42,301 nucleotides of DNA from an uncultured bacterium (GTDB lineage: Bacteria > Desulfobacterota > DSM-4660 > Desulfatiglandales > CALKZT01). Made by a program: the position numbers and the translations under genes. Where the stretch lies: positions 1 to 42,301 of the forward strand of contig CALKZT010000014.1 in NCBI GenBank assembly GCA_938002815.1. Direction: 5' to 3'. The notes under the pieces are model-generated. The model worked only from the letters and a program-made list of their open reading frames with translations. It did not search any database and was not told the DNA's origin. The stretch's first letter is position 1. Every line of letters begins with the position of its first letter. Positions 3,244 to 30,431 of this stretch are shown here, piece after piece.

Positions 3244-3580
3244 CTAAAAGCCAAAACCAAAACCCTTTTAGGTCTACCATGGTAAGAACTGGACCAGATG
3301 GACACCATGGCTTCTCATAAGCCCTCGACAAGCCCTGACGGACTAAACCACCTTGAGATCACCCCCTTCTATTTCACAAACACCCCAATACTTCCCTGCC
3401 CTGATTCGGCGAACATATTTTTTTAGGGGTTAACTATTGCGAATATTCTACCCATTCTGAGTTAGCTCAGAAGAGGCATTACAAAAAAGACCCTTGACCC
3501 CAGATTAAGCCCTTTTATTTCTGAAGAGAGTAACTATAATCAAAATATTAATAGCGATTAAATCCAGAAGGAGGAAACTG
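3244..3580. other. Intergenic region between divergent genes
   Basis: This is the spacer between the secreted repeat protein (minus) and the HesB-like selenoprotein (plus). I find no reading frame with coding character. The only regulatory candidate for the plus-strand gene is a TATAAT at 3535-3540, 40 bases before the ATG, without a good -35 hexamer at the right spacing; a TTGACC at 3494-3499 is too far away at 35 bases. A strong AAGGAGG sits just before the ATG at 3581. Confidence 0.4.
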
Positions 3581-3901
3581 ATGTTAGAGGTAACAGAGCA
3601 TGCAGACCAGATGATAAGAGAGTTTTTAAAGGATAGGCCAAGCATTCCGCCTATCAGAATAATGTTATCCCAAGGCGGTTGAGCGGGCCCAACCTTAGGA
3701 ATGGTTCTGGATGAACCAAAAGAAGAGGATGAGGTATTCCATTTAAGGGGGATCACCTACCTGGTGGATAGGGATCTCTACGAAAAGGCAAAACCCATAA
3801 TGGTTGACTATGTAGTCTCCCCTTTTGGCTCAGGGTTTCAGATCAAATCCAATCTCAACTTGGGCGGTGGATCCTGCGGCGGAAGTTGCTCCACCTGTTA
3901 A
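3581..3901 (+). CDS. HesB/IscA-like selenoprotein with in-frame TGA (Sec34)
   Basis: Reading from ATG 3581 (AAGGAGG eight bases upstream) gives 106 residues with a TGA at codon 34 (3680-3682) and a TAA end at 3899-3901. The residues around the TGA read LSQGG-U-AGPTLGMVLDE, exactly where HesB/IscA-like proteins carry a conserved cysteine, and the frame is alignable on both sides. The C-terminus GGGSCGGSCSTC is Cys-rich, as in A-type Fe-S carriers. HesB-like proteins with Sec at this position are a known selenoprotein family in anaerobic deltaproteobacteria. Likely role: Fe-S cluster or metal handling, with Sec as a ligand or redox residue. Automatic annotation would probably truncate it to the part starting at 3701 or call it a pseudogene. 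A hairpin follows the TGA (3703-3717). It is probably monocistronic, because a strong hairpin follows the stop. Confidence 0.85.
3703..3717 (+). promoter_or_regulatory. Candidate bacterial SECIS hairpin
   Basis: GGTTC (3703-3707), loop TGGAT, GAACC (3713-3717) forms a perfect 5-bp stem. It starts 20 bases after the in-frame TGA, with its loop about 25 bases downstream, inside the usual window for bacterial SECIS elements. An alternative pairing of AACC at 3691-3694 with GGTT at 3703-3706 is also possible. Folding was not computed. Confidence 0.5.
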
Positions 3902-3904
3902 GCG

Positions 3905-3930
3905 TAGGCACCTGATCTTTCAGGTGCCTA
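3905..3930 (+). terminator. Perfect 11-bp hairpin between selenoprotein gene and rsmG fusion
   Basis: TAGGCACCTGA (3905-3915), loop TCTT (3916-3919), TCAGGTGCCTA (3920-3930) starts four bases after the selenoprotein stop codon. There is no U-run after it, so it is not a canonical intrinsic terminator. It may terminate, stabilise the selenoprotein mRNA 3' end, or hide the weak ribosome site of the next gene, whose ATG is at 3943. Confidence 0.6.
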
Positions 3931-3942
3931 TAACCCATTTGG

Positions 3943-5388
3943 ATGACCAATAAGGATCATCTCAGGATACTCTTCCAAAGATCAGGCCTCAGGCTTACGC
4001 GAGAGCAGACCCAGCTCTTTTGGCGCTTTCACTCCCTTTTGAGGGAAAAGAGCAGAGAATCAGATCTCACAAGGATCTATAACTTTGAAAACATGGTGAT
4101 AAAACACTATGTGGACTGTGCCATAGTCCCCAGCTTGGTGGAGCTACCCTCGGAACTACTTGACCTTGGCACAGGTGCAGGGTTCCCTGGTATTCCAATC
4201 AAGATTATGATGCCTCAAATTAGGCTTACCCTCGTAGAGACAAGGCAGGAGCGTGTAGAATTCTTGGAAGAGGTATTAGAGGAACTTGAGCTAAAGGACG
4301 TTACTCTGATCAAAAAGAAGCTCTCCGGCCCAATTGGAAAAAGATTCGAAGGTGTTATAACAAGGGCTTTGGAGGATATAACCAGCACACTAAGAAGAGT
4401 GCTTGAGGTGTTGGAGCCCAATGGAAAAGTAATTTTTATGAAAGGCCCTAATTGCGATGAAGAAATAGAAGAAGCCAAAGAAAATATGGGCGCCTTTTAT
4501 GCTCTCTATAAAGACATACATTATACGATACCAGAGACCACTTACAGGAGAAGACTTTTGGTCTACAGGAAAAATGATGTTCCTTTCAGAGACCTCAAAG
4601 AGATAACCAGTTCGGATAATAAGACATACAAACTCTTTAAAAGCCTTCTCACATCAAAAGGGATAGAGAAAAGCTCTCTTTTTTTGATGTGGGGATCAAA
4701 AGTTGTAAAAGAAACAATCCAAGATCACATAACGCATATAGAAGGAGTAATATTAAGGCAAGGAGGACCCTTCCCAGAGTCAATATTAATAGATTCTCCG
4801 TATTTTAGGCTCTCAAAGGAGCTTTTTGACCAACTGGATCCCTTTGGAACATCTTATCCTATCCTCCTACTCAAAAAACCTAAAATAAGGCCATTTGGGG
4901 ATATGCCCAGAAAAGGCCCCATCCTTGCCATACCCTTCCAGGATCCTTCAAACGTGGGAGCAGTAATCAGGACCTCTCTTGCTATGGGAGTAAGGAATCT
5001 TTTGCTGACAGAATCCTGTGCAAGCCCTTTTCATCCCAAGGCGGTGAGGGCCTCTGGACCGTGTATCCTAAGTGTAGAGCTTTTTGGTAGGCCGAAGTTA
5101 GAGGAGCTCAGGGCATTAAGGCTACCCATCGTGGGGCTTGCTACCCCACCCAAAGGGGTAGACCTCTTACGTTTTGGGTTTCCTGAAGATTTTATATTGC
5201 TTCCGGGCCTGGAAGGGCCTGGGTTGCCCCTTGAGATGGCGGATCAGCTCATCTCCATCCCCATGGAAGATGGGGTGGAATCCCTGAATGTGGGTGTGGC
5301 AACGGCCATTGCCCTCTTTTGGTGGAGGGCCAGAAGGGACCTCAGAGGTCCTCTATCAATTCCTCTGAAGGTGGGGGAGGGAGCTTAG
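3943..5388 (+). CDS. rsmG: RsmG 16S rRNA m7G methyltransferase fused to SpoU/TrmH-type 2'-O-methyltransferase
   Basis: The protein has 481 residues. Residues 1-~210 match RsmG (GidB), which methylates G527 of 16S rRNA: SAM motif LLDLGTGAGFPGIPI at 73-87 and the MKG motif near 166-168. RsmG alone is usually ~210 residues. Residues ~220-325 resemble the substrate-binding domain before SpoU enzymes (YKLFKSLLTSKGIEKS). Residues ~329-460 carry SPOUT motifs in order: IPFQDPSNVGAVIRT, LLPGLEGPGLP, IPMEDGVESLNVGVA. The SpoU half should make a 2'-O-methylribose in rRNA or tRNA; the target is unknown. No stop or frame shift separates the halves. The ATG has no good Shine-Dalgarno sequence, and the hairpin at 3905-3930 precedes it. 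The 3' end overlaps korC by 47 bases on the opposite strand. Confidence 0.9.
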   Translation: MTNKDHLRILFQRSGLRLTREQTQLFWRFHSLLREKSRESDLTRIYNFENMVIKHYVDCAIVPSLVELPSELLDLGTGAGFPGIPIKIMMPQIRLTLVETRQERVEFLEEVLEELELKDVTLIKKKLSGPIGKRFEGVITRALEDITSTLRRVLEVLEPNGKVIFMKGPNCDEEIEEAKENMGAFYALYKDIHYTIPETTYRRRLLVYRKNDVPFRDLKEITSSDNKTYKLFKSLLTSKGIEKSSLFLMWGSKVVKETIQDHITHIEGVILRQGGPFPESILIDSPYFRLSKELFDQLDPFGTSYPILLLKKPKIRPFGDMPRKGPILAIPFQDPSNVGAVIRTSLAMGVRNLLLTESCASPFHPKAVRASGPCILSVELFGRPKLEELRALRLPIVGLATPPKGVDLLRFGFPEDFILLPGLEGPGLPLEMADQLISIPMEDGVESLNVGVATAIALFWWRARRDLRGPLSIPLKVGEGA

Positions 5389-30069: not shown

Positions 30070-30431
30070 TTACCATGGATTCCAAAGAAAAGTCTACCCT
30101 ATGGGATAACACCTGAGGGCTGGATACAATCAAACTATGAGAGGTTAGGTAACCTAAGTAGTATCTTCAAAAAAATAGCAGCAAAGATCTTGCGTATGTA
30201 ATCGAGTTCGGTAAAGGGACAAGCTGGAAGCTACAGCCTGGAACAAAAAAGAGCATAGATTCTAAGTCTATCGAAACCTTGTGAAACAAAGCAAGACTAC
30301 AGTGTGCCATTTATTTGTAAAGCTGGCGATATGGATGACAGTTAAATTGGGCAATGAGAAGTATTTCCTTGACTTGTGTTTCTCTATGTAATAGAAGATT
30401 TCTACCTAATCTGATAGGGTGGAGTGCTTCC
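30070..30431. other. Non-coding stretch before a truncated permease
   Basis: No gene was recognised. A short palindrome (TTAGG-TAA-CCTAA, near 30144) lies in it. It is part of the decaying segment at 29.9-32.3 kb. Confidence 0.35.

Follow-up and report, generated by a model that had tools for sequence, protein, structure and literature searches.

Selenoproteins of the HesB-like family have been described since 2006 or earlier. Eleven members were listed in that year, several of them from Deltaproteobacteria (PMC1794560), and a 2026 review includes the family with its UxGP motif (PMC13188914). The HesB-like selenoprotein of Methanococcus maripaludis has been labelled with 75Se, and a mutant disrupted in the gene could be obtained, in which nitrogen fixation was not impaired (PMC11097638). 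UGA is also read by a second described system, selC* tRNA-Cys with SelB* (Mukai 2017, reviewed in PMC7609411), whose features are U73, an acceptor stem of 8 bp, a T stem with a bulged A and a selB* gene downstream (PMC7609411).

Here we describe a hesB-like gene in a stretch of 42,301 nucleotides (the window) from the draft genome of an uncultured bacterium of the Desulfatiglandales. The gene is a clear but ordinary additional member of the HesB-like family, and the preliminary description of this DNA had itself held that the family is known from deltaproteobacteria and not new. It adds one more selenoprotein that is well supported and would be overlooked by standard annotation; more useful than the single gene is the outcome of the comparison, namely covariation in the SECIS hairpin and replacement between selenocysteine (Sec) and cysteine at least 10 times.

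A hesB-like gene with an in-frame UGA

The gene lies at 3581–3901 on the forward strand and encodes 106 amino acids followed by TAA when its single TGA is translated as U; the read-through product is MLEVTEHADQMIREFLKDRPSIPPIRIMLSQGG-U-AGPTLGMVLDEP...GGGSCGGSCSTC-stop. The UGA (3680–3682, forward strand) is codon 34, a predicted Sec codon, and aligns with the first cysteine ligand of IscA-type proteins. Homology to the family is present on both the N- and the C-terminal side of this codon, in agreement with the intact HesB-like frame across the TGA that had been proposed for this stretch. The strong ribosome site that had been claimed is likewise there: a Shine–Dalgarno sequence, AAGGAGG (3568–3574, forward strand), precedes the ATG by 6 nt. 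Under the standard code no forward-strand open reading frame (ORF) of at least 80 amino acids is listed at 3581–3901, and ordinary gene calling would therefore miss or truncate the gene, much as had been expected of standard calling, which was thought to miss or mis-start it.

We scanned the window for in-frame TGAs with at least about 30 open codons to either side. Nearly all of the about 60 cases overlap a longer ORF. Two TGAs are free of such overlap, codon 34 of the hesB-like gene and one at 30169 on the reverse strand, and a selenoprotein-like context was seen around the former and not the latter.

The protein scores 125.8 bits with NCBIfam NF038090 (IscA_HesB_Se; cut-off 85), the match covering positions 1–101 of the 101-position profile. 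Where this profile has GG-[U/C]-xGP, the hesB-like protein has U-A-G-P at residues 34–37. It shares with NF038090 the full-length match, the Sec column and the Cys-rich tail found in relatives; nothing substantial differs. With the TIGR01911 (HesB_rel_seleno) proteins of Methanococcus maripaludis and Clostridia it shares the fold, the UxGP motif (U-A-G-P here) and Sec at the first ligand position. Its TIGR01911 score of 38 bits falls below the cut-off of 66.35, for which reason we place it in a sister subfamily. The highest identity to any of eleven aligned relatives is 68%, and the nearest solved sequence is that of Aquifex AQ_1857 (1nwb).

The fold was predicted with AlphaFold from a 12-member alignment with Cys substituted for Sec (mean pLDDT 82.9; the last 12 residues, the C-terminal tail, were left unmodelled). 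The model matches structures of IscA and SufA (1r94, 1s98, 1x0g and 2d2a), those of E. coli among them, with a TM-score of about 0.7. The likeness to the A-type Fe–S carriers IscA, SufA and ErpA thus consists of the predicted fold and a first ligand position aligned with Sec34. The protein differs from these carriers in having Sec instead of Cys35 and a Cx3Cx2C tail instead of CxC, so that in place of their three-cysteine set C...CxC we find U34 with C99-x3-C103-x2-C106. It also scores 23.5 bits against PF01521 (Fe-S_biosyn), just under the gathering cut-off of 26.3. Given the sub-threshold score and the altered tail, a classical A-type function cannot be taken for granted. The tail cysteines, Cys99 (3875–3877), Cys103 (3887–3889) and Cys106 (3896–3898), span 3875–3898 on the forward strand; the first two are invariant and the third nearly so in the 12-sequence alignment. 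By analogy with IscA, the three cysteines and Sec34 are presumed to be cluster or metal ligands.

The codon-34 column and the SECIS hairpin

We analysed a sample of 395 genomes of the phylum, 168 of which contain NF038090 members above cut-off; among the matches listed, most have exactly one TGA. Together, the window and 90 retrieved loci yielded 99 family members. Their codon-34 column consists of TGA (74), TGC (15) and TGT (10), with no other codon. The aligned position had been described as normally Cys; the column indeed admits Cys and Sec only, but within this subfamily it is usually Sec (74 of 99). On the protein tree the state changes between Sec and Cys at least 10 times, single forks being uncertain in proteins this short. 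Tandem or adjacent Sec and Cys copies occur in families f18, f19 and f43 (loci L049, L050, L045, L023, L024, L025, L032 and L075), and the Cys copies of these sets have lost the hairpin described below. Named records with Cys relatives came mostly from Desulfobacterota/Deltaproteobacteria; this search used TGC/TGT patterns and so returned Cys forms only.

Downstream of the UGA the transcript can form the hairpin GGUUC-UGGAU-GAACC (3703–3717, forward strand), with stem 3703–3707/3713–3717 and loop UGGAU at 3708–3712; an extra outer pair, 3702/3718, extends it to 3702–3718. The spacing from the UGA is exactly 20 nt to the hairpin (3683–3702) and 25 nt to the loop. In TGA genes generally the stem has the form GGYUC/GARCC with a UGGAY loop, starting 20 nt past the UGA. 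The preliminary description had pointed to a 5-bp hairpin 20 bases downstream, as in bacterial SECIS elements, and the comparison bears this out: all five stem pairs form in 73 of 74 TGA homologues as opposed to 1 of 25 Cys homologues. The codons under the hairpin follow the same division. TGA genes use CTG for Leu (74/74) and GCT for Ala (63/63); in Cys genes the Leu and Ala codons are unconstrained, GCC, CTT and others being common.

In 63 genes the third stem pair (3705/3715) is C-G, from an Ala codon GCT and a Glu codon GAG, and in 11 it is U-A, from Val GTT and Glu GAA; no mixed combination was found. The window belongs to the 11 GTT+GAA members and its nearest relatives have GCT+GAG; the U-A form appears in about three separate places of the tree (the window, families f72/f92 and f19). 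Such compensation indicates that the hairpin, which lies just 3' of the UGA and carries a G in its small apical loop, is a real bacterial SECIS element. Counted over 35 diverse members, 97.1% of cells are paired, and covariation was 0.241 against 0.169±0.011 in shuffles, none of 500 being as good; helices slid out of register were 17–50% paired. Covariation thus fixes the SECIS element of the family to a 15-nt hairpin over the A/V-L-D-E-P codons.

We dropped folding energy as evidence for SECIS elements, position-specific pairing and covariation being needed instead. The energy of the window hairpin alone was unremarkable (z = −1.0), and the difference between Sec and Cys groups was weak (p 0.046), because the coding region is generally structured. 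An Rfam scan of the window gave no match; for bacterial SECIS elements, which are short, we regard this result as uninformative.

Decoding machinery and alternative readings of the UGA

The genome that holds the window is a 2.25-Mb draft in 128 contigs (90.7% complete, 3.5% contamination). It encodes all four genes that the UGA had been said to imply: selA on contig C56 (616.6 bits), a full-length selB on C67 (384 bits), a tRNA-Sec with UCA anticodon on C26 (80.7 bits) and selD on C32 (376 bits), the last with one UGA inside selD itself. SelB is present in 353 of the 395 genomes of the phylum, so its co-occurrence with the gene is not discriminating at that scale.

With this machinery, Ser-tRNA-Sec(UCA) would be converted into Sec-tRNA-Sec by SelA and SelD, and SelB would bind the hairpin at 3703–3717, 20 nt past the UGA, so that Sec is delivered at codon 34. 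The product would be a single-domain A-type (IscA/HesB-fold) protein with Sec in place of the first metal- or cluster-ligand cysteine. It most likely binds iron or an Fe–S cluster via Sec34 and C99/C103/C106, and may be a carrier or a redox-active accessory protein in Fe–S metabolism. We hold it to be very probable that the gene encodes such a selenoprotein, with Sec34 inserted by SelA, SelB, SelD and tRNA-Sec by means of the SECIS hairpin and with iron or Fe–S binding as the likely property of the protein.

The genome also carries a second UCA tRNA and a second SelB. The tRNA is on contig C32 (locus L051, 2803–2893, reverse strand); it carries U73, its acceptor stem is 8 bp long and its T stem contains a bulged A. 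The second SelB, 40% identical to the first, is split between C32 (L051, 43–1446, reverse strand) and C19 (locus L052, 1–602, forward strand), the latter holding its C-terminus. The C32 copy stops 42 nt short of the contig edge and C19 continues; we read this stop as an assembly end effect. The selC* marks (U73, 8-bp acceptor, T-stem bulged A and UCA) were found in 10 tRNA copies compared, with selB* nearby. Judged by these shared marks, the second pair is the selC*/SelB* system already described and would insert Cys. We rejected two other interpretations of it, namely a new Sec system, as U73 and the T-stem bulge are marks of selC* tRNA-Cys, and contamination, as the composition of C32 matches the rest and, in genome G132, a single contig carries both pairs. 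Of 85 genomes of the order, about 11 encode a close SelB* homologue (at least 43% identity); most of these have a normal SelB as well, and the tRNA usually adjoins the SelB* gene. The tRNA on C32 is flanked by hdrA/mvhD-like and hdr-like (CCG domain) genes, and the hdrA-like gene there (L051, 5348–2893, reverse strand) is apparently broken into several frames, in which the frameshifts may be assembly errors.

Two systems that read UGA could make the hesB-like codon ambiguous, with Sec inserted by SelB and tRNA-Sec when selenium is available and Cys inserted by SelB* and selC* tRNA-Cys(UCA) when it is scarce. If this were true, a single gene would yield both a Sec-containing and a Cys-containing version of the apparently sole A-type Fe–S protein, but we consider it quite improbable. 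The one serious competitor to Sec at codon 34 is Cys, inserted by the selC*-type tRNA-Cys(UCA) and SelB* either constantly or when selenium is short: the genome has the second tRNA and SelB with the marks described in PMC7609411, and Cys is tolerated at this column in 25 of 99 homologues. The selC*/SelB* system is, however, not needed for the hesB-like gene, since relatives in which it was not detected retain the TGA and the hairpin. One of them, G331 (98% complete, on a single contig), encodes a single SelB and a single tRNA-Sec, with no detected selC*/SelB*, but shares the TGA and the hairpin, which favours Sec by a wide margin. In addition, the TGA form of the gene is widespread in the phylum, whereas close SelB* homologues were found only in the small part of the order given above. 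Decoding as Cys is thus a highly improbable account of codon 34.

Under the standard code UGA is a stop, and Sec insertion invariably has to compete with termination. The UGA might accordingly end translation and yield a 33-residue peptide, or a downstream restart; yet the protein is conserved to the end of its C-terminal Cys tail, and only TGA genes maintain the hairpin, so that this outcome is hardly credible. Single-base errors do occur in a draft of 128 contigs, but the reading of the TGA as a sequencing or assembly error for TGC/TGT, or of the gene as a pseudogene, is in practice refuted by the conserved TGA, which 73 further sampled homologues share, and by the hairpin, whose stem is preserved here through a compensatory double change, with the remaining frame, ribosome site and invariant residues all intact.

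Probable role and surrounding sequence

We found no other A-type Fe–S protein with PF01521 in this 90.7% complete draft, and the hesB-like gene was the sole match to NF038090, a profile that also matches the E. coli control. PF01521 matches nothing but a TGA member of the hesB-like family in genomes G331, G371 and G391, and nothing but a Cys member in G195 and G132; in G014 the PF01521 match differs from the family. We therefore favour a role for the selenoprotein as the cell's A-type-like Fe–S protein with a Sec ligand, which may function as a carrier. Several of the tested complete genomes yielded no A-type Fe–S homologue other than this family, which makes the family a good place to ask what part selenium plays in Fe–S cluster trafficking. 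No conserved neighbour or operon partner was found across the hesB-like family.

Around the gene we noted several further features of the window. On the reverse strand, a TTGACA-17-TATAAT sequence with an extended TG (3243–3215, matched 12/12) lies upstream of an ORF of 514 amino acids (3209–1665, reverse strand) that has no Pfam or NCBIfam family match. Right after the hesB stop codon there is a perfect 10-bp inverted repeat, AGGCACCTGA-TCTT-TCAGGTGCCT (3906–3929), without a U tract. It is followed at 3943–5388 (forward strand) by a single ORF, apparently a fusion, with RsmG (16S rRNA G527 methyltransferase) and SpoU/TrmH-type RNA methyltransferase domains.
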